From: Bryobacteraceae bacterium CoA2 C42
GTDB taxonomy: Bacteria; Acidobacteriota; Terriglobia; Bryobacterales; Bryobacteraceae
Direction of reading: 5' to 3'
NCBI GenBank assembly: GCA_019931245.1
Contig: JAINDL010000050.1
Coordinates: forward strand, 1 to 56,212
DNA length: 56,212 bases
Of the stretch, positions 61-10,643 are shown one piece after another. A model generated the notes under the pieces. The model ran no database searches, had not been told where the DNA came from, and was given only the letters and a program-made list of their open reading frames with translations. Made by a program: the position numbers and the translations under genes. Positions within the stretch are counted from its first letter, which is position 1, and every line of letters starts with the position of its first letter.

Positions 61-1522
61 CGCAGGCTGCAAGAGAATTCTCTGCGATGGGGTACTTCTG
101 CCTGGCGTACGGACGGTAGCTTGGGGTATTGTTTTCAATCGAGTACGATGGTGCTTCGCAGTTTTGCCGGGCTGGGCCGCGAAGTCGGAGTTCGACGGGG
201 GGGCATGGGGCCGTTGCGGCTCTGGCGGCGTCCGGATGGGGAAGTTAGTGGTTTGATCTTGCTGGCGGCGGCGATTGAGGAAGAGAGCCGCGCCGCCGCG
301 ACCGAAGTGGAGATGGGTGGATGGCTCCGGGAGCCTGGTGGCATCGCCGAGAAGCAGGAGGCCGGAGGGTTCCTGCTGCCGTTGGGGATGCCCGCGGTCG
401 ATGACGGTGCTTTTTAGCTGACGGTGCTGTCTAAACGATCGAGTTTGCCGGGGATCGCGGCGAGGGGGGGGGAGGGGGAGTTTAGCGCGGAGATGGCTCG
501 GGAGGGCCAGGACGTGATCCTGATCGATCTCGAAGGGCCGGTGCTGATTCGCGTAGGTCAGGGTGGAATGTTGGGGGAGCTTGGGCGAACCCGAGATGGA
601 CCCGTTTGCCCTTGCTGGCTGGGAGTCTTTCCCAGGCTTCACGGAGGCTTGGGGCCTGGCGGAGTTGGCAGAAGAGGATGGCCGGGAACTGTTCCCAGCA
701 GCGAAGAGCGGGGGGGGGCGCTGGCCCTGGTGGTGACGGAGGATCTTTTCAAGGTCGTCCGGGGAACCTGCTCGAGTAGTTAGCTGAAAGTGCCGGATAG
801 TTGAGACCAGGCTGGGGTCGTTGTGGGGCTGGAGTCGATTTTTGCAGGAAGCGTCTTGGTACCCTGGCAAGGCCTCACCCTTCAGGGCGGTACGCTGATT
901 TGGACCCGATTGAGATATTGCAGGGGGGCGGAGGAACGATTGCGGTCGATGGGCAGTTGTCCGATCCACGCACTGCCACTGGTGGCGGTGATCCAGGACG
1001 AAGGTAGAGTCCCTGTGTCCCCGCCAGTTTGCCGCACCGGTCGAAAGGTTCGCCGCAAAACAGGAGGTTGTTCGGGCGGGGTTCTGGACGAGACTGAGGG
1101 ATTCCTGAATTTTCGTCTTTCTCCTTCGCCAGGACCTGGCGTCTTCCCGGGAGGGAGGACCACCTTAGAACGAATCTACTCGGCTGCCCAGGGAAAGTTA
1201 TCCGCAGGTGGTGCTGTTGTGCCGCGCCCTGCCGTACTTTGGGTTAGTACTATCGCTTCGCAATAGTAAGGGCGGACATTCGAGGATTTGCCGGCCCGGC
1301 TGAGTGCTCGGCGGAGTGGGCGGCTATGCCGGTGCGCGGGATTCGAGTCTGTGTGGCTCTTGCGCCGGCCGGTTGAAGCCGGGCGCGGCGCCCTTGGTGA
1401 CAGGGCGGGCTGGAGGCCGGTCCGGCCGGGAGGACTGTTGCGGCTCGGCGGCGGTAGAGGCGGCAGGTGCTCGTGTTGTGTCTGCTGCTTCCGGTGGGCC
1501 TGCCGATCGGTTTTGTGTCCTT
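61..1522. other. About 1.5 kb with no confident gene
   Basis: Both strands contain open frames of 60-150 codons, but none has a recognisable domain, a good ribosome binding site, or the codon pattern of the neighbouring genes. GC is high and the plus strand is G-rich, which by itself keeps antisense frames open. The segment could be decayed coding or mobile-element DNA, or a long spacer downstream of the minus-strand operon that ends at 1541. I cannot name a parent family for any part of it. Confidence 0.5.
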
Positions 1523-1554
1523 GATTACCGGCTTCGCGGATTACCGGCTTCGCG
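1523..1554. repeat. 16-bp tandem duplication at the stop codon of the prenyltransferase-cyclase gene
   Basis: The 16-mer GATTACCGGCTTCGCG is present twice back to back. The second copy contains the TAA stop of the minus-strand gene at 1541-1543. The neighbouring copy would give a similar Pro-Arg-Ser-Arg-stop ending in another frame, so the duplication buffers the 3' end against frame slips. Confidence 0.7.
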
Positions 1555-3547
1555 GGTAAGTGAAGAGACAGGGATCAAGGCCGGTTGGGCGGGATGCTTG
1601 TTCGGTGAGCGATCCGAGGGCGGTGGCAGTGGTGAAGACGCCATCGTGATCGAGATAGCAGGGCCCGGAGGCGAGATTGGTCCAGGGTTCGCGGTAGTTG
1701 GGGCGGGGAAGGCGCAGCCAGGCACCGGGCTCCCAGGAGCCGTCGGGTTTTTGCATGCGGGCCAGGGCATCGCGTTGTTGGGCGAAGGGCAGGCCGAGTT
1801 CGCGGCGGGTAAGGACGAGCAGCGCCAGTTCGAAGGCGCCGGTGGGGCTCCAGCGGCTGATTCCGTCGATGAGGCGCTGGCGGGGGGCGGGGGGCAGTTG
1901 GCGGCCGAAGACGCGGGCGACCCACCAGGCGGGGTAGAGGGGGGAGACCCACCAATAGGCGTTCCAGAGGCCATCGGGGCGCTGCCGGCCGAGAAGCCAG
2001 TCGAGGGTGCGGGCGGGGTCGGGCGGGGAGAGGTACTCGGCGACGACGGGGGTGACGTCGACGGTGCTTTCGCACCAGGCGCCGCCGGGCGGGGTGCCGT
2101 GGGGGTAGGTGGCGACGCCCCCATCGTCACGCCAGCAGGAGGCGAGGAAGCGGCGGACATCGACGGGGTGACCGGCGCGGGCGAGGGCGAGGGCGGCGAG
2201 GGCGGTGGAGTCGGCGTCTTCGGGGGTGGCGGCGTTGTAGCCCCAGGCACCGCGGGGGCCGCGGAGGGAAGCGAGATGTTCGCAGCCGAGTCCGGTGTGG
2301 AAGGCGACGTAGGCGGTGACCCAGTGATCGGCGGTGCCAACGGGGAGGGCGAAGCCGGACCAGCCGCCGGCGTGTTGGCGGCGGGCGGCAAGCCAGGCGA
2401 GGCCGGCGCGGGAGACCTCCGGCAGGTTGGTGTTCGCGGCCCGGGGGGAGAGGCGGGGGCGGGCGGGGGGGAGAGCGGGGGGAGGGGGTTCGAGGTAGAT
2501 ATTGGCCCGGCGGGTGCCGGAGGGGTCGGTGCGGAGGCCGATGAGGCGATGGATGGTGGGTTGGTGGCCGGGAGGGGCGAGGGCGGCGAGGGCGTCTTCG
2601 TAGGGCCCGGCGGGGATGGCCATGCGGTGGAGGAGGTGGCGGACGCGGGCGGCGGTGGTTTGCTCCGTGGGGCTTGGCCGGTTGAGTTCGAGTTCGGTTT
2701 TGAGGGCGGGGGGCTGGTCGGCCGGGGGGAATTCGAGCGAGACGACGATGGCGCCGGGGGGGGCGGGCGTTCGGGAGGGAGGGGCGAAGATTTCGAGCAG
2801 GAGGCGGGCGTGTTCTTCGGCGTGGGGGTAGCCGCAGGCGAGATACCAGCGGGAGAGCCAGGAGGTGGTTTCGACGGCGCCGGAGCGGAAGTAGATTTTT
2901 ACGCCGCCGATGCCGGACGGGCTGAGGGCGATGGCGATGCCGGCGGGCCAGGAGTCGCGGGAGGCGAGGCGGGAGCAGTGACAGAGCGATTCGAGGGCGG
3001 TGGTGCGGCCGAGGGTGGCAAGGAGTTGGCCGGCGCGCCGCCAGCGGGAGGCGGGGTCGCCGGCGGTGAGGTTGCAGTAGATTTTGAGGGCGATGTGGTT
3101 GCCGACGGCGCCGGCGGCGGACCAGAGGGCGCTGCGCCAGTGGGCGGGCCAAGCGTTGGGGAGGAGGTGCTGGCGGGTGAGCTGTTCGGCTTGGAGGGCG
3201 GCGTTTTCGGCGCCGATGAGGCGGGCGGCTTGCTGGAGGCGGGCGAAGGAGTTGGCGAGGCGCTCGGGGCCGGGGGCGCCGACGGGTCCGCATTCGGTGA
3301 GGAAGCGGACGGAGGGTAGGGGTTCTCCGGCGGCGACGGACCACTGGAGGGGGAGTCCGCTGGCGTTGATGTGGGAGAGGCCGGGGTAGTGGGGCTCGGC
3401 GGGGCGGTCGAGGGCATCGCCGGAGAGAAGGGAGAAGACCTGCTGGAGGCGGCGTTGGTTGGCGGGGGGGAGTCCGGCGGCCGCCGAGAGCAGGTGGAGC
3501 TGCTGTTCGGCGGCCTCGCGGAGCAGGGGTAGGGCGGTGGCGGACAT
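1541..3547 (-). CDS. ABBA prenyltransferase / class II terpene-cyclase-like fusion protein
   Basis: This 668-residue protein has two halves. Residues about 55-355 look like an ABBA (DMATS-type) aromatic prenyltransferase: a Pro-rich strand near 65-82 ending in LRF-like SVRF, then repeated strand motifs KIY (155-157), KIY (217-219), LKTELEL (282-288) and NIYLEP (349-354), the Lys/Tyr pattern that binds the prenyl diphosphate in that fold. Residues about 375-645 resemble the alpha/alpha toroid of squalene-hopene and class II diterpene cyclases, with GGW and PDGxW repeat-like motifs (394-396, 524-528, 601-604) and DADST at 444-448, which matches the DxDDT acid motif and keeps its central Asp. 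The ATG at 3547 is chosen because the longer frame runs 160 bases into the upstream gene. It is the last gene of a three-gene operon, 7 bases after the Gly-rich gene. There is no signal peptide, so it is probably cytoplasmic. Fold assignments are by eye; substrate unknown. Confidence 0.7.
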   Translation of the reverse strand: MSATALPLLREAAEQQLHLLSAAAGLPPANQRRLQQVFSLLSGDALDRPAEPHYPGLSHINASGLPLQWSVAAGEPLPSVRFLTECGPVGAPGPERLANSFARLQQAARLIGAENAALQAEQLTRQHLLPNAWPAHWRSALWSAAGAVGNHIALKIYCNLTAGDPASRWRRAGQLLATLGRTTALESLCHCSRLASRDSWPAGIAIALSPSGIGGVKIYFRSGAVETTSWLSRWYLACGYPHAEEHARLLLEIFAPPSRTPAPPGAIVVSLEFPPADQPPALKTELELNRPSPTEQTTAARVRHLLHRMAIPAGPYEDALAALAPPGHQPTIHRLIGLRTDPSGTRRANIYLEPPPPALPPARPRLSPRAANTNLPEVSRAGLAWLAARRQHAGGWSGFALPVGTADHWVTAYVAFHTGLGCEHLASLRGPRGAWGYNAATPEDADSTALAALALARAGHPVDVRRFLASCWRDDGGVATYPHGTPPGGAWCESTVDVTPVVAEYLSPPDPARTLDWLLGRQRPDGLWNAYWWVSPLYPAWWVARVFGRQLPPAPRQRLIDGISRWSPTGAFELALLVLTRRELGLPFAQQRDALARMQKPDGSWEPGAWLRLPRPNYREPWTNLASGPCYLDHDGVFTTATALGSLTEQASRPTGLDPCLFTYPRSR

Positions 3548-3554
3548 GCGGGGG

Positions 3555-4205
3555 TTAAGCCGACTGCTCGATGATATTGATGGAGCCATCTCCGCCGCCG
3601 GTACCGTTCTGGCTGGTGGCGCCGTTGGCGCCGGGGTTGCCCTGGCTACCGGCGTTGCGACCGTTGCCGCGCTGACCGCGAGCGCCGCCCGGGCCGGCCG
3701 CACCGCCGAAGCCGGGTTGGCCGCCTTCGGCGTTGGCGTTGAGGGTTCCGGTGGTGATGTTTTCGGCGACTACCTGGATATTGCCTCCTTTGCCGCCGTT
3801 GCCGCCGCGGCCGCCTTCGCCGCCGGTGCCTCCGTTACCGCCGTTGCCGCCGTCGCCCTGGTCCTCGCAGCCGGAGCCGCTGCCGCCATCGCCGCCTGGG
3901 CCGCCTGCGCCACCGGGGCCGCCGTTGCCGCCGTTGCCGCCGTTTCCGCCGCGGGTGTCGATATCGACGCCGACGATGAAGTCGGAGACCTGAATCAATA
4001 CGTCGCTGCCGTTGCTACCGTTCTGGCCGGCGTTGCCGGGAGAGCCGTCGAGTCCGCGTCCTCCGTTGCCGCCGTTACCGGCGGGGTCGTCGCCGTCCCA
4101 ATTGCAGACGGCCGCGCGGCCGGGGGTGCCATCAAAACCGGGCTGGCCCGCGGTTCCCGCGCTGCCGGCCGCTCCATCCGAACCTCTTGCGACAATGTTT
4201 GGCAT
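3555..4205 (-). CDS. Glycine-rich, polyglycine-II/collagen-like protein
   Basis: The 216-residue product is built mainly of GGxGGx and GxN/GxP triplets, as in bacterial collagen-like or polyglycine-II helical bundle proteins. Two short beta-strand-like inserts interrupt it (about residues 69-82 with DVLIQVSDFIVG, and about 142-156 with NIQVVAENIT). Two isolated cysteines (VCNWD and GCEDQ) could form a disulfide. There is no signal peptide or membrane segment. A good Shine-Dalgarno (AGGAG) lies 8 bases before the ATG and overlaps the stop of the upstream gene, so the two are probably translationally coupled. It is followed after 7 bases by the prenyltransferase-cyclase gene. Function is unknown; scaffold, surface or substrate-protein roles are all possible. 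Confidence 0.7.
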   Translation of the reverse strand: MPNIVARGSDGAAGSAGTAGQPGFDGTPGRAAVCNWDGDDPAGNGGNGGRGLDGSPGNAGQNGSNGSDVLIQVSDFIVGVDIDTRGGNGGNGGNGGPGGAGGPGGDGGSGSGCEDQGDGGNGGNGGTGGEGGRGGNGGKGGNIQVVAENITTGTLNANAEGGQPGFGGAAGPGGARGQRGNGRNAGSQGNPGANGATSQNGTGGGDGSINIIEQSA

Positions 4206-4216
4206 CTGATTTGCTC

Positions 4217-4915
4217 CTAAGATTCTTTCAAGAAAGTGGTGTTTTTAATGAGGTTTGGAGTAGCCGTAATGCCAGTCCATTTATTTTTGTAATCTCCATT
4301 AAAGTTTTGGCAATTAATGGTGATTGGGCCCTGGCAAACGATACGACCGGAACCATGGATACGGATATTGCGCGCATAGAGGGCGTGGGTGCCCGGAGCG
4401 ATGACGAGGGTGGCGCCGTCCTGGATTTCGATGTTCGCGAGGAAGGCGAGGTTGAGGACGGCGTCGGTGAGTTGGACGTAGCGGTCGAGGAAGGCCTTCT
4501 GGGAGGCGGAGGCGCGGGCGCCACTTCTGACATAGTTGCGGGCGTCGAGGCGGGCGGCGGAGAGGGCTTTGCCGCGCACGGCGGGTTCCGGGGAGTCGAG
4601 TTCGTCGATATTGCGGAAACGGCTGGGCTTGCTGCACCCGCATCCTGGCGTGGCGCCGGGTTGGGCGGAGGCGAAGGCGGCGACGGAGGGAGAGACGCCG
4701 ACGAGCTGACGGATCTCATCGATCGACCGCGGTTTCATTTGTCGGAAGGCGGCGCGAAAGCGTTCCGATTCGAAGGTGAGCAGAACGGTCTCGCCCTTTT
4801 CGACCTTGAGACCGGCCCCATCGGCAGCCACGCCACAGTCTTTGGAGACTTGGTCGAATTGCATGGCGAGGAGCTTTCCCAGTGACGGTCGGTTGACACC
4901 AGATTTTAGTTCCAT
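4217..4915 (-). CDS. Unknown protein, first gene of the prenyltransferase-cyclase operon
   Basis: This 232-residue protein belongs to no family I recognise. The N-terminal half is mixed and hydrophilic. A GCGC cysteine cluster lies near residue 93 (PGCGCSKP), then a helical stretch rich in Ala and Arg. The last 70 residues have short repeating strands (DGATLVIAPG, ARNIRIHGSG, GPITINCQN) like a small right-handed beta-solenoid. No signal peptide is seen. The start has a Shine-Dalgarno (AAGGA) at a normal distance. It heads the operon and is transcribed divergently from the Oar receptor; the 222 bases between them must hold both promoters. Its solenoid and the Gly-rich protein next door suggest proteins that assemble together, but this is inference. 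Confidence 0.7.
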   Translation of the reverse strand: MELKSGVNRPSLGKLLAMQFDQVSKDCGVAADGAGLKVEKGETVLLTFESERFRAAFRQMKPRSIDEIRQLVGVSPSVAAFASAQPGATPGCGCSKPSRFRNIDELDSPEPAVRGKALSAARLDARNYVRSGARASASQKAFLDRYVQLTDAVLNLAFLANIEIQDGATLVIAPGTHALYARNIRIHGSGRIVCQGPITINCQNFNGDYKNKWTGITATPNLIKNTTFLKES

Positions 4916-5137
4916 CTTGATTGTTCCTTTGTGAATTCCTGCGAAAATCGCATCTGGATAGTCAGTGAAAAGAAGGGCCCAAGGGTTACAAAAGTTTTCG
5001 GGGGAACTTTTGCGGCCGGGGTGGGGGTGGGGAGGTGCGGGGGGAGGGGAGGGTTCGAGACGGTAGCCGGGGTTGTCCGCTCCCGCGCCCTCGGGAGCTT
5101 TTCGTTTTGGGTTACCATCAACTTACGAGGTATTCTC

Positions 5138-8100
5138 ATGAGAAGCTTAAATCGATCTTTAACCAGGGGTCTTGTTTGTCTACTCGCGGGCGCCAGTTTT
5201 GCCAGCGCGCAGACAATTACCGGCTCCGTTACAGGTACCGTCACCGATCCTTCGGGCGCAATTGTGGCCGGCGGGTCCGTCGTGGCCACCAACAGCGACA
5301 CCGGGGTGCGCACTACGCTTACCGCGAACAACGAGGGCATTTACACGTTTCCGTTCCTCCGGATCGGGAGCTACACCATCTCTTTCGAGGCCAAGGGCTT
5401 TAAGAAGTCCGTGATTGGTCCGTTTAAACTCGAAGCTAACCAGGTGGCGCGTATTGACGCCAAACTCGAGCTTGGCGACATCAGCCAAACCGTGGAAGTT
5501 ACCGACGTGGGTCCGCTGCTGCAGACGGAGACGCAGGCGACGGGCGACACGCTGAGTTCGACCAAGTTGACCAGCATTCCGCTGAACGGCCGGAACTTCG
5601 CTTCGCTAACCCTGCTGATTCCGGGCGCGGTTTCGACCTCGCCGGGCGCTATGAACACGGCGGCCCGCTTTCAGGGTTCCGGTTCGCGGCCGCAGGTGAA
5701 TGGCAACCGCGAACAGACCAACAACTTCCTACTGGATGGCGTGGACATCAACCAATCGGTGGACAACCAGATTGGCTACCAGCCGAGCGTGGATGCGCTC
5801 GAAGAAGTGAAGGTAGTCACGGGCAACGCCGGCGCCGAGTTTGGCAACGTGGGCGGCGCGAGCGTCGTGATGTCGATCAAGTCCGGAACGAACGAGTTCC
5901 ACGGGAACGCGTTTGAGTTTCTGCGGAACGAGAAACTGGACGCCAACGGGTTTTTCGCCAACCGCAACCGGACGCAGCGGCAGGCGCTGCGCCAGAACAT
6001 TTTTGGCGGCACGTTTGGCGGCCCGATTCAGCGGAACAAGATGTTCTTCTTCGTGGACTACGAACAGACTGAGCGGCGGATTGCGGGTCCGGCGACGGCG
6101 TCGGTGGCCCCGGCCGCCTGGCGCGCCGGTGACCTGAGCCAGTTTCTGACCGTCGCCAACCAGGTGGTTCGCGACCCGGCGACGGGCGCCAGCCTAGCGT
6201 CGCGCACCCCGTTTCCGAACAACCAGATTCCGGTTTCTCGCTTCAGCAATACGGCGCGGTTCCTGTTCGGCAATCCGTCGCTGTATCCGTTGGCAAACAA
6301 CACCGGCGTGGGGAGCCTGGGGGTGAGCAGCAACTACATTGGGGGCACCCGCAACTTCCTGTCGAACAAGCAGGGCGATGCGAAGCTGGACTATCGGATT
6401 TCGGAGAAGGACAACCTGATGTGGCGCTATTCGCGGGCCTTTTACGACACTTTCGGCTCGCAGGCGGCTCTTCCGATCTTCATGACGGGCGGCAACCAGG
6501 GTCCGACGTGGTCGACGGTGGGGAACTGGACGCGCACGTGGAACGCGCAGTTGGTTTCGGATAACCGCTTTTCGTACAGCAGCGTCGGCATTGACGACCG
6601 GACGGTGGACTGGTCCGGGCAGTTGGGCGCCGATGGGAACCAGAAGTTCGGGATTCCCGGCGGTCAGCCGATTCCCGGCCTTTCGGCTTTCGGCATTGGC
6701 GAGCAGCTCAGCGGCGCGGGCGCCGCGGCGACGATTGCCACGACCCGCGACAAGAAGTATCAGTTCCAGTCGAACAACACCTACCAGGCCGGCGCGCACG
6801 TGCTGAAGTTTGGGGTGAACCTGCTGCGGAACATTCAGACCCGCTACTACGCCGGCAACAACGGCGCGCTGGGGTCTTTTGGATATAACGGTGCTTACTC
6901 GGGACTGACGATTGGCGACTTCCTGCTCGATACGCTCGCGTCGAAGGGCCGGGGCGCGGTGGCTCCTCCGTGGAACCACATGGGTTGGCGGAACATCATT
7001 TTCGTGCAGGACAGCTGGAAGGTAACGCGCAGCCTGACGTTTAACTTTGGTCTGAGCTGGGAGTACACCTCGCCGATCTATGAGAAAGAGGACCGGCAGG
7101 TGAACATCAACACGTTTACGGGCGAACTGATCTACCCGGGCAAGACGCAGTACGGCCGGGCGCTCTATAACGCCTACAAGAGGCAGTTCAACCCGAACCT
7201 CGGCCTGGCGTACACGATCAATCAGAAGACGGTTGTTCGCGCCGCGTACCGTCTTTCGAACTTCCTCGAAGGCACGGGGGCGAACCTGCGCCTTCCGCTG
7301 AATCCGCCGTTTTTCACCGAGTCCAACGTGACGTATGACGTGAACGCTCCGGGCCGGATTGCGACCGGCTTCGGCGACCTGATTGCGCGCGGCGACCTGA
7401 CCGGTCCGCGGTCGAGCCCGACGGCGGCCCCGTTCTATCAGGGCCGGGCGTGGGACCTGAACCTGCGGCCGCAGATGACCAACCAGTTCAACTTCGCGAT
7501 TGAGCGGGAGATCGACAAGGCCACGAGCGTGAACATCGCCTATGTGGGCCAGCGCGGTACGCACCTGGTGATTCCGCACGAGGCGAATAACCCGCTGCCG
7601 GGCACGGGTCCTTTCAGTACGTGGGCGCCGATCAACGATCGCCGTCCGCTGGCGCGGGTGTTGCCGAACGTGGGCAACATTGCGCTGACCGAGTCGAGCG
7701 GCACGAGCTGGTACAACGCGATGCAGCTATCCGGTCGCCGCCGCATGACGGGCGGGTTCGAGATGCTGTTTCAGTACACCTACTCGAAGACGAACACGGA
7801 CGGGCTGGGCTACTACGGCTGCGGCGGCGTGAACGCCGAGGGGGCGTACTGGCAGGATGCCTACAATCGCCGGGGCAATTACGGTCCGGCCTGCTTTGAC
7901 GTGCGGCATAACTTCACGACGGCCGGCATCTACAATCTGCCGTTCGGCAAGGGCCAGAAGTTTGGCTCGGGCATGAGCAAGGCGGCGGATCTGGTGCTGG
8001 GCGGCTGGAACATCAACTACAACCTGGCGCGGCGCGGCGGCTTCCCGGTGACGGTGTTTGCGAGCCAGCAGAATACGAACTCCGGGCGGTCGCCCCGCGG

Positions 8101-8500
8101 CAACGCGCGGGCGAACCGTTACCGGCCGGCCAACTTCTCCGGTACCCGTACCGTGGACAGCTGGTTTGGCAAGGTGTTCACGGCGAGCGACTTCTGCGCG
8201 GCGGGCGTGGATAACGGCACCTGTGCCTACGGCGTACCGGCTCTGGGCGAATTTGGTTCGTCGGGTGTGGGTACCGAGCGGGCGCCGGGCTTCTTCAACC
8301 TGGATACTTCGATTGGCAAGACGTTCCGCTTCACGGAGCGCCACCGCCTCGAGTTCCGGACGGAGATGTTCAACGTGCTGAACTTCGTGAACTGGGGTCC
8401 TCCCGGACGCGATATCAACTCGCCTTCCACGTTTGGCCAGATCACCGGGCAGATTGGATCGCCCCGCAACATTCAGTTTGGTCTGAAGTACTTCTTTTAG
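5138..8500 (+). CDS. Oar-like TonB-dependent outer-membrane receptor
   Basis: The 1120-residue product has a signal peptide ending near ASAQ (residue about 24), a carboxypeptidase-regulatory-like beta-sandwich (about 25-110, GTVTDPSGA and GVRTTLTANNEG), a TonB plug (about 145-260, with NGRNF and NNFLLDGVDIN) and a long beta-barrel that ends in Phe-Phe, as outer-membrane barrels do. This architecture is the Oar family, strongly expanded in Acidobacteria, where members take up oligosaccharides or peptides. The ATG at 5138 is preferred over the in-frame start at 4931 because it opens directly into the signal peptide and has GAGG 7 bases upstream. A factor-independent terminator follows at 8525. 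The substrate cannot be read from sequence. Confidence 0.92.
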   Translation: MRSLNRSLTRGLVCLLAGASFASAQTITGSVTGTVTDPSGAIVAGGSVVATNSDTGVRTTLTANNEGIYTFPFLRIGSYTISFEAKGFKKSVIGPFKLEANQVARIDAKLELGDISQTVEVTDVGPLLQTETQATGDTLSSTKLTSIPLNGRNFASLTLLIPGAVSTSPGAMNTAARFQGSGSRPQVNGNREQTNNFLLDGVDINQSVDNQIGYQPSVDALEEVKVVTGNAGAEFGNVGGASVVMSIKSGTNEFHGNAFEFLRNEKLDANGFFANRNRTQRQALRQNIFGGTFGGPIQRNKMFFFVDYEQTERRIAGPATASVAPAAWRAGDLSQFLTVANQVVRDPATGASLASRTPFPNNQIPVSRFSNTARFLFGNPSLYPLANNTGVGSLGVSSNYIGGTRNFLSNKQGDAKLDYRISEKDNLMWRYSRAFYDTFGSQAALPIFMTGGNQGPTWSTVGNWTRTWNAQLVSDNRFSYSSVGIDDRTVDWSGQLGADGNQKFGIPGGQPIPGLSAFGIGEQLSGAGAAATIATTRDKKYQFQSNNTYQAGAHVLKFGVNLLRNIQTRYYAGNNGALGSFGYNGAYSGLTIGDFLLDTLASKGRGAVAPPWNHMGWRNIIFVQDSWKVTRSLTFNFGLSWEYTSPIYEKEDRQVNINTFTGELIYPGKTQYGRALYNAYKRQFNPNLGLAYTINQKTVVRAAYRLSNFLEGTGANLRLPLNPPFFTESNVTYDVNAPGRIATGFGDLIARGDLTGPRSSPTAAPFYQGRAWDLNLRPQMTNQFNFAIEREIDKATSVNIAYVGQRGTHLVIPHEANNPLPGTGPFSTWAPINDRRPLARVLPNVGNIALTESSGTSWYNAMQLSGRRRMTGGFEMLFQYTYSKTNTDGLGYYGCGGVNAEGAYWQDAYNRRGNYGPACFDVRHNFTTAGIYNLPFGKGQKFGSGMSKAADLVLGGWNINYNLARRGGFPVTVFASQQNTNSGRSPRGNARANRYRPANFSGTRTVDSWFGKVFTASDFCAAGVDNGTCAYGVPALGEFGSSGVGTERAPGFFNLDTSIGKTFRFTERHRLEFRTEMFNVLNFVNWGPPGRDINSPSTFGQITGQIGSPRNIQFGLKYFF

Positions 8501-8595: not shown

Positions 8596-9849
8596 ATGCC
8601 AATCCCGATGCGAAGAAGAGAGTTCCTGCCGCTGCTGCTGGCGCCGGGCGCGGCGCTGGCGGCGGCGCCGAAGTTGAAGATTACCGGACTGCAGACGTTC
8701 GTCGTGGACGCTTTCCGCTGTAACTGGGTGTTTGTGAAGATCACGACGGACCAGGGGCTGACCGGGTTGGGCGAGGGGACGACGGAGATGAACGAATTGA
8801 CCGTCGAGGCGGCGATCCGGAACATGAGCCGCTACCTGGTGGGTAAAGATCCGTTCGCCGTCGAGTACCATACGCACATCCTGCGGCGGGAGTCGTACTG
8901 GCGGAACGGGGTGATTCTGCGCAGTGCGCTGGCGGCGGTGGAGGCGGCGCTGCTCGACATTAAGGGCAAGGCGCTGGGGGTGCCGGTGTACGAGCTGCTG
9001 GGCGGACGGTATCGCGACCGGATCAAGTGCTACGCCAACGGGTGGTTTACGGGGGCGAACCGGCCGGAGGAGTTTGCGGCGAAGGCGGCGGCGACGGTAA
9101 AGCAGGGGTTTCAGGCGTTGAAGTTTGATCCGTTTGGGAAGGCTTATCTGACGATGAGCCCGGCCGAACAGGAGATGGCCGTGGCGCGGGTGGCGGCGGT
9201 GCGGGAGGCGGTGGGGCCGCGGGTGGACATTCTGGTGGAGGCGCACGGGCGGCTGGATGTGCCAACGGCGGTGGCGATGGGGCAGCGGCTGGCGCCGCTG
9301 CGGCCGCTGTTCTACGAGGAGCCGGTGCTGCCGGAGAACCTGCGGTCGCTGGCGGAGGTGAAGCGGGGGATGCCGTTGGCGGTGGCTACCGGGGAGCGGT
9401 TTTATGATGTGGAGCGGTTTCAGGAGGCGCTGCGGCTGGGGGCGGTGGACTATCTGCAGCCGGACGTGATTCACGTGGGGGGGATGCTCGAGACGAAGCG
9501 GGTATGCAGTCTGGGACTGGTGGAGGACCGGCCGGTTTCGGCGCACAATCCGAACGGGCCGTTGTGCAACGCGATGACGCTGCAGATTGCGGCTTCGACG
9601 CCTAATTTTGTGATGCTTGAGACGGTGGTGACGGATGTTCCGTGGCGGAAGGATGTGGTGCGGGAGGATCTGGAGATCATCGACGGGGAGATGGTGATTC
9701 CGGACAAGCCGGGTTTGGGCCTGGAGTTGAACGAGGCGGAGGCGGCCAGGCACCCGTACGTGCCGCATGATCTGCGGCACTATACGGGGGCGTTGACGGC
9801 GATCCGGCCGCCGGATGCGGTGCCTTACTGGCGCTTGGGGCGGCCTTAA
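8596..9849 (+). CDS. Enolase-superfamily dehydratase, galactonate-dehydratase-like, exported
   Basis: The 417-residue protein belongs to the mandelate racemase/muconate lactonizing enzyme branch and looks most like D-galactonate dehydratase. It has the EAHGR motif (replacing DFHGR), EEPV, ATGERF, QPDVIHVGG and a His in SAHNPNGP, which correspond to the metal ligands and acid/base residues of sugar-acid dehydratases. The N-terminus (MRRREFLPLLLAPGAALAAA) resembles a Tat signal with RR, so the enzyme is probably periplasmic. ATG 8596 or 8608 could be used; the only strong GGAGG is 20 bases before 8596. Its stop overlaps the stop of the convergent SDR gene. The exact sugar acid is not determined. 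Confidence 0.85.
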   Translation: MPIPMRRREFLPLLLAPGAALAAAPKLKITGLQTFVVDAFRCNWVFVKITTDQGLTGLGEGTTEMNELTVEAAIRNMSRYLVGKDPFAVEYHTHILRRESYWRNGVILRSALAAVEAALLDIKGKALGVPVYELLGGRYRDRIKCYANGWFTGANRPEEFAAKAAATVKQGFQALKFDPFGKAYLTMSPAEQEMAVARVAAVREAVGPRVDILVEAHGRLDVPTAVAMGQRLAPLRPLFYEEPVLPENLRSLAEVKRGMPLAVATGERFYDVERFQEALRLGAVDYLQPDVIHVGGMLETKRVCSLGLVEDRPVSAHNPNGPLCNAMTLQIAASTPNFVMLETVVTDVPWRKDVVREDLEIIDGEMVIPDKPGLGLELNEAEAARHPYVPHDLRHYTGALTAIRPPDAVPYWRLGRP

Positions 9850-10643
9850 GGGGCGGGCGGGGCGAGGAAGGCGCCGCTGATGCGGGCGAGGAGGCCGCGG
9901 GGGGTGAAGCGGGCGGACTGGGCCATGATCCAGTTGCGGAGTCCGACGATGTGGGTGGGGCCGGGGGAGTCGAGGGCGAGGAGGCAGGCCTGGACGACCT
10001 CGTCGACGGTGAGGGGGGTGGCGCGGAGGAGGGGCGTGGACCGGGCGCCGCCGCCGAGGGCGTCGAGGAAGGGGGTTTCGACAGGGCCGGGGCAGACGGC
10101 GGCAACGCGGAGGCCACGGGAGCGGTATTCGGCCCAGAGGGCTTCCGAGAAAGAGAGGACGTAGGCTTTGGTGGCGCCGTAGGCGGCCATGTAGGGGGTG
10201 GGCTGGAAGGCGGCGGTGGAGGCGATGTTGAGCACGGTGCCGCGGCGGGCGAGGAGTTCGGGGAGGAACAGGCGGGTGAGTTCGGTGAGGGCGACGACGT
10301 TGAGTTGGAGCATCTGGGAGAGGCGTGCGGGGTCGTTGCCGGCGAGGGGTCCGAAGAGGCCGAAGCCGGCGCAGTTGATGAGGGTGTCGATGGAGATGCC
10401 GAGGCGCTGGACTTCGTCGAAGAGTTGGCGGGCGGCGCCGGGGGCGGCGAGGTCGAGGGGGAGAACGGTGGCGTGGCCGCCGGCGGAGCGGACCTGTTGG
10501 GCGAGTTCGGCGAGGCGGTCGGCGGAGCGGGCGGTGAGGAGGAGGTGGGCGCCTTTGGGGGCGAGGGCGACGGCGAGGGCGGCGCCGATGCCGGAGGAGG
10601 CGCCGGTCAGGAGGATGACGGCGGAGTGTTTAGACGGTGTCAT
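9846..10643 (-). CDS. Short-chain dehydrogenase/reductase (SDR)
   Basis: The 265-residue enzyme is a classical SDR. It has the Rossmann motif TGASSGIG near residue 13, an Asp-Leu at the end of beta 4, NCAG, a catalytic Ser in NIAST, and the YxxxK pair in YGATK. The C-terminal tail is similar to DltE/YqjQ-type SDRs. It uses NAD(P)H on an unknown alcohol or ketone. It is transcribed divergently from a TetR regulator, and the 59-base gap between them carries a paired operator, so the regulator very likely represses this gene. Confidence 0.9.
   Translation of the reverse strand: MTPSKHSAVILLTGASSGIGAALAVALAPKGAHLLLTARSADRLAELAQQVRSAGGHATVLPLDLAAPGAARQLFDEVQRLGISIDTLINCAGFGLFGPLAGNDPARLSQMLQLNVVALTELTRLFLPELLARRGTVLNIASTAAFQPTPYMAAYGATKAYVLSFSEALWAEYRSRGLRVAAVCPGPVETPFLDALGGGARSTPLLRATPLTVDEVVQACLLALDSPGPTHIVGLRNWIMAQSARFTPRGLLARISGAFLAPPAP

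Follow-up and report, generated by a model that had tools for sequence, protein, structure and literature searches.

The window analysed here, a stretch of 56,212 nucleotides from a Bryobacteraceae genome, carries on its minus strand a gene whose product raises the question whether one polypeptide could attach a prenyl chain to an aromatic acceptor and then close that chain into rings, and which acceptor would be served. In the reading that we prefer, at a probability of about 0.5, a bifunctional enzyme prenylates Trp36 of orfB, the protein encoded directly upstream, and then cyclises the attached chain, with the product of orfA helping.

Domains of the fusion protein

The reading frame at positions 1541-3547 of the minus strand (the strand of all window features below unless stated) starts with ATG, is open throughout and encodes 668 residues, assigned by phmmer and profile searches to an N-terminal DMATS-like prenyltransferase and a C-terminal monodomain class II terpene cyclase. 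The KIY and NIYLEP strands and the DADST motif listed in the preliminary description are all present in this frame (LKIY at residues 154-157, VKIY at 216-219, ANIYLEP at 348-354 and DADST at 444-448). The frame is conserved in a second copy, that of locus L002, with 95% identity in the N-terminal and 86% in the C-terminal half. L002, recorded as belonging to an Acidobacteriaceae MAG, is the same locus as that of genome G613 (100% across 3,885 bases). An antisense frame of 671 codons (1304-3319, plus strand) scored above the fusion gene in a crude codon test, and the minus strand was chosen since homology decides; the antisense frame has a glycine-rich translation and is a mirror frame of GC-rich DNA, for which homology gives no sign of a gene. 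The fusion gene stands third in a tightly packed run made up only of orfA (4217-4915), orfB (3555-4205) and itself, the same trio as in L002, and divergent from this run lies a gene for a TonB-dependent receptor with carboxypeptidase-regulatory and barrel domains (4931-8500, plus strand).

By profile comparison, the N-terminal half (residues 1-360; 2468-3547) is homologous to DMATS prenyltransferases. Three profiles of this half were employed, A1 with six rows including the window, A7 with nine and A9 with ten. Against PDB, A1 matched eight DMATS sequences (best 6zrz, 1.1e-10), the two remaining rows below the E limit of 10 having values of 0.13 and 0.78, and the top eight rows obtained with A7 were all DMATS (E 1.5e-11 to 2e-6), followed by an unrelated row at 0.33; the A7 matches represent homology across most of the prenyltransferase domain. 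As a single sequence, the N-terminal half of the window matched no DMATS chain in PDB (phmmer, E up to 10) and no family in Pfam and NCBIfam (E up to 5). The DMATS family TIGR03429 was matched by three of the six N-terminal sequences (best E 2.4e-5), the window's not among these, and in the window's own genome TIGR03429 gave no match at E up to 0.1. Since TIGR03429 did not match it, the half is filed as DMATS-like and not as a TIGR03429 member. An AlphaFold model built from two input sequences is weak (pLDDT 42.6) and shows a helix-helix-strand-strand order in DSSP. When this weak model was used with Foldseek, 46 of the best 50 of 143 matches at E up to 10 were DMATS-fold prenyltransferases, occupying rows 1 to 46, with a best E of 3.5e-4, nine matches at E up to 0.001 and TM values of only 0.30-0.51. 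The preliminary description had postulated an ABBA prenyltransferase and proposed a fold search with the N-terminal half; the A7 matches to DMATS structures bear out the former, and the latter, with a weak model, placed DMATS-fold enzymes at the top. A model of the full-length fusion (pLDDT 33.0) was discarded as evidence.

In DMATS enzymes, pairs of lysine and tyrosine bind the diphosphate and a glutamate is catalytic. In the printed alignment, R81, K155/Y157 (3077-3085), K217/Y219 (2891-2899) and Y351 fall on DMATS positions, each of the two K-x-Y pairs aligning with the K-x-Y of a DMATS strand and Y219 being identical in nine of nine rows. The usual DMATS Glu aligns with Gln68 in the window, a column with E in three of the nine rows. 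The Lys/Tyr pairs suggested in the preliminary description therefore align with those of DMATS, and judged by alignment they may line a diphosphate pocket. A C-x-H-C motif following the K-x-[ED] strand (columns of window positions 2672-2695) occurs in six of the nine A7 rows and seven of the ten A9 rows, and in none of the fused forms checked, namely the window, L002, G054, Paracoccus and the Deinococcus part.

The C-terminal half is, to judge by its nearest relatives, a catalytic-looking class II cyclase, which groups with catalytic monodomain cyclases. It consists of a single domain of about 300 aa that aligns with MstE and 6ij1, and in phmmer searches of PDB with the whole protein it was through residues 378-653 (1589-2416) that 6ij1 'Prenylcyclase' (3.7e-15) and MstE (1.4e-10) were matched, with 8pak (1.3e-10) aligned from residue 364. 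A six-row cyclase profile, A2, matched 8paj at 1.3e-46, MstE at 1.2e-35 and a squalene-hopene cyclase at 2.8e-20. In class II cyclases, the middle Asp of the acid motif donates the proton. The DADST motif (residues 444-448; 2204-2218) is identical in all six aligned cyclase domains and is present also in the cyclase of genome G742; the corresponding motif is DADST in 6ij1 and 8pak and DADTT in MstE. Hence, the class II cyclase domain of the preliminary description holds, and its possible refutation, a toroid of a non-catalytic repeat family, was not seen: a non-catalytic toroid was rejected with DADST kept and the nearest PDB sequences being monodomain cyclases. The two other refuting outcomes named in that description were not observed either. 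An identity as squalene-hopene cyclase was likewise rejected (TIGR01507, 9.6 bits versus a curated cut-off of 431.1).

Distribution of the prenyltransferase-cyclase pairing

Statements of absence rest on six-frame searches of fetched stretches and on whole-genome searches. The A7 prenyltransferase profile matched 10 of 237 genomes of the window's family, nine of them strongly and G103 partially (E 2.5e-4). A cyclase is fused or adjacent in six of the nine strong genomes: fused in the order prenyltransferase-cyclase in the window and G613, whose loci are near-identical, fused in the reverse order (673 aa) in another acidobacterial genome, G054, and encoded by a neighbouring gene in G119, G022 and G078. 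When 299 genomes of the class were sampled, one more split pair came from G742, a member of another family. In all four of these pairs the start of the cyclase gene, as placed, overlaps the stop codon of the prenyltransferase gene (GTGA or ATGA). In G056, G115 and G081, no such cyclase was present in any of the six frames of the 15.0, 11.7 and 10.0 kb fetched, respectively. The cyclase profile by itself matched 132 of the 237 genomes with E values of 1e-10 or lower, for the most part, among the matches listed, in long frames resembling squalene-hopene cyclases; the six linked cyclase domains stand apart with E below 1e-120. Near distant monodomain cyclases (G601, G008, G080 and G050), no prenyltransferase of the window's family was found in six frames of the fetched stretches. 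With a six-row profile, the window alone matched among 396 genomes of the phylum. A search of 39 genomes of the family of G742 gave G742 alone.

The preliminary description proposed an HMM search for other ABBA-toroid fusions; reverse fusions were found in G054, in Paracoccus and, interrupted, in Deinococcus. On a plasmid of Deinococcus sp. QL22 (L073:5953-8118), a cyclase gene is followed by a 'hypothetical' gene in the same frame, with an interruption between them that reflects either sequence error or decay, and the parts match the G054 fusion, one with 36.7% identity in 420 residues and the other with 38.6% in 220. In Paracoccus, two plasmid records contain the same reverse fusion, which is 698 aa long (29.1%, E 4e-30) and has the motif DSDST. 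G054 (L016:877-13623) and Paracoccus (L080:119-10581) have a common gene order of PLD-like, 749-aa-type, 738-aa-type (both for large, uncharacterised proteins), reverse fusion and tyrosinase genes, with one extra gene after the PLD-like gene in each, and identities in the aligned parts of 42, 37, 32, 30 and 40% in gene order. Nothing useful came from searching phages for the reverse fusion, or plasmids for orfB and the prenyltransferase of L055.

ABBA-cyclase fusions thus exist in two gene contexts, and since the domains occur in either order, fusion or rearrangement seems to have taken place at least twice. Given their other cluster, with a tyrosinase, the reverse fusions may have different substrates. 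The linkage of prenyltransferase and cyclase is not accidental, and it is well supported, as is the homology of both halves.

The upstream genes and a candidate acceptor

orfB (3555-4205), the proposed substrate, encodes a glycine-rich protein of 216 aa, with 36% Gly and GGx repeats, and lies directly upstream of the fusion gene with 7 bases between them; in L015, L055 and L056, the orfB stop overlaps the prenyltransferase start. Its only tryptophan lies in C34-N-W36-D-G-D39 (4089-4106), the proposed prenylation site. The pattern C-x-W-x-G-D, with a single Trp in the aligned part, was found in all six orfB homologues located beside a prenyltransferase of the window's family, in the variants CNWDGD (window and L002), CHWYGD (G078 and G115) and CHWDGD (G056 and G081); two of the six are 96% identical to each other. 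These six linked proteins have 15 identical non-Gly residues, including C34, W36, D39 and C113. A genome without a match to the prenyltransferase profile, G121, contains two tandem glycine-rich genes beside an orfA-like gene (L057, 157-1581), whose products have a Trp in the aligned column, near a Cys, though not as C-x-W-x-G-D, and when these two are added to the six, the non-Gly identities are reduced to M1 and W36.

orfA (4217-4915) encodes a 232-aa companion of orfB with no significant family match and a putative helper role. Its profile matched 7 of the 237 genomes and that of the prenyltransferase 10, with both present in six, and in all six the genes orfA, orfB and prenyltransferase are consecutive. 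For this co-occurrence of orfA and prenyltransferase, the hypergeometric P is 6e-9 by genome, a value too small on account of kinship, and 1e-3 by genus. In the tree, the window prenyltransferase falls outside a supported clade (100/99) of G078, G056, G115 and G081, so that the orfA-orfB link spans two lineages, the exact place of the window sequence being unsure due to long branches. For three of the orfB homologues, the 10-15 kb examined contain the adjoining prenyltransferase but no such cyclase. In each of these three cyclase-less loci, a short C-x-x-C protein is encoded directly after the prenyltransferase (L055:9791-10048, L056:506-796 and L054 at about 4897-5421); a possible target of this protein is the pair of conserved cysteines in orfB. 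In G078, a cytochrome P450 gene (L015:7966-9186) lies downstream of the split pair.

In G119, G742, G054, Paracoccus and Deinococcus, no orfB was found beside the prenyltransferase and cyclase, and in Deinococcus the 12.9 kb examined contain no glycine-rich ORF of at least 80 aa. The G022 contig ends inside the gene upstream of its split pair. By eye, G119 and G742 have in common an upstream 252-aa protein and a longer one (L014, about 8735-10485; L075, 8275-9377). A rule that the upstream gene has one Trp was rejected, since the 252-aa protein of G119 has one (EEWCGCAGD), it is absent there in G742, and the 738-aa protein of G054 has seven.

In the preferred reading, the DMATS-like domain would transfer an allylic prenyl chain to the indole ring, and the chain would probably be C15-C20, given the class II cyclase that comes next. 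With D446 of DADST as proton donor, the cyclase domain would then protonate the distal end of this chain and close the rings; two polyprenyl synthase homologues are present in the window's genome. With Trp36 of orfB as acceptor and orfA assisting orfB, the outcome would be a ribosomal protein carrying a cyclised terpene on one tryptophan. The preliminary description had suggested prenylation followed by cyclisation in one chain, which is plausible: both domains are present by homology (A7 matches; 6ij1 and MstE), and both reactions, their order, the chain length and the choice of Trp36 we infer. The core of the system would be orfA-orfB-prenyltransferase, to which the cyclase was added, since this core is present in three relatives that have no such cyclase nearby. 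Given its adjacency and single conserved Trp, orfB is a concrete candidate acceptor, and the gene neighbourhood at this locus suggests that the target is a ribosomal protein in which a single Trp is conserved. Points against this reading are the poor structure models, Gln68 in place of the usual DMATS Glu, the weak constraint on the prenyltransferase half, the absence of an NHLP or Nif11 leader match, and the prenyltransferase-cyclase loci lacking orfB, among them reverse fusions in two further phyla.

A small-molecule meroterpenoid is less likely at this locus, and it is rather unlikely that the fusion prenylates and cyclises a free indole or phenol with orfA and orfB being unrelated to it. 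Such a synthase would be in keeping with the DMATS enzymes among the PDB matches, whose substrates, according to their entry titles, are free Trp or small indoles, with MstE, whose substrate is a small aromatic acid, with the P450 downstream in G078 and the tyrosinase after the reverse fusion in G054 and Paracoccus, and with the several prenyltransferase-cyclase loci that lack orfB. However, the window run contains nothing besides orfA, orfB and the fusion, and the link of orfB with the prenyltransferase is kept without this cyclase in three genomes, with a stop/start overlap in the two checked. If a protein is the target, W36 may be structural instead, as C34 and C113 are equally conserved in the six linked orfBs and the Trp of this column is found also in the two glycine-rich proteins of G121, where the prenyltransferase profile had no match. 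Prenylation of another residue (Cys34, Tyr or His), or of a protein other than orfB, nevertheless seems improbable: Cys34 is indeed as well conserved as Trp36 in those six, and cyanobactin prenyltransferases modify diverse residues, as described in the review PMC13290415, but the nearest structures are indole prenyltransferases, and besides Met1 this Trp is the sole non-Gly residue identical in all eight orfB-like proteins.

Finally, the fusion could be a decaying or non-catalytic relic in the window's lineage, which we consider highly improbable. Between the window and L002, dN/dS is 0.75 in the prenyltransferase half (29 changes), 0.42 in the cyclase, 0.33 in orfA and 0.18 in orfB, as compared to 0.09 and 0.05 in two neighbour genes, and hence the fusion is under weaker constraint, above all its prenyltransferase half, which is also devoid of the C-x-H-C found in most A7 and A9 rows. 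Against decay, the 668-codon frame is intact in two genomes, the Lys/Tyr pairs and DADST are kept, the cyclase value is lower, and the other fused forms likewise have no C-x-H-C. 

With Trp36 of orfB as the acceptor, these loci may, tentatively, represent a new class of ribosomal products, in which a collagen-like or polyglycine-II-like orfB is lipidated at the Trp of C-x-W-x-G-D by a DMATS-like protein prenyltransferase, some lineages adding a split or fused cyclase to yield a polycyclic terpene anchor, together with a second cluster, found also on plasmids of other phyla, with the reverse fusion and, in two of its three hosts, a tyrosinase. Should orfB be the acceptor, terpene decoration would extend to a structural-looking glycine-rich protein and not a short peptide, and the one-Trp motif could be searched for in other genomes. 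As the ABBA-cyclase pairing is seen fused both ways and split, with the prenyltransferase also occurring alone, substrate channelling and the acquisition of the cyclase become testable.

Comparison with known systems

The bacterial DMATS enzymes (6zrz/6zs0, 6zrx, IptA 7w8u, CymD 6os3, PriB 5inj and TleC 4yzj) resemble the N-terminal half of the fusion in homology and in the Lys/Tyr strand residues, but their PDB entries are of stand-alone enzymes with small indoles as substrates, and they have a Glu where the window has Gln68. MstE and 6ij1 resemble its cyclase in having one domain, the DAD[ST]T motif and a nearly domain-long alignment, whereas in the PDB entries they are separate proteins and not fused. 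Fused maturases are common, and the precursor of one fused enzyme, NctPC, is reportedly a proteusin, a ribosomal peptide; proteusin precursors have an NHLP/Nif11-type leader and are encoded adjacent. The window differs in this respect, as neither orfA nor orfB gave an NHLP or Nif11 leader match in NCBIfam (E up to 1).

The preliminary description, which knew of no described family with such a fusion, is contradicted by two prenyltransferase-cyclase fusions, NctPC and ChrPC, both named in PMC13290415. A literature search, in a coverage excluding most subscription journals, turned up nothing pertinent on systems of this type from Acidobacteriota or acting on a glycine-rich substrate. NctPC, originally reported by Hubrich et al. 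2024 (PMC11484575) according to PMC13290415 and found also among the references of PMC12715784, is described as an ABBA-fold prenyltransferase domain with an MstE-like cyclase domain, which attaches a C20 chain to Trp that is then cyclised; going by this description, it is like the window fusion in joining an ABBA prenyltransferase to an MstE-like monodomain cyclase. ChrPC, as outlined in the same review, likewise has prenyltransferase and cyclase domains and carries out Trp prenylation followed by cyclisation, as is predicted for the window fusion, but its prenyltransferase has a trans-IDS-like fold and not the ABBA fold. The fusion architecture is therefore already known, and it is the gene neighbourhood with the glycine-rich orfB that is new.
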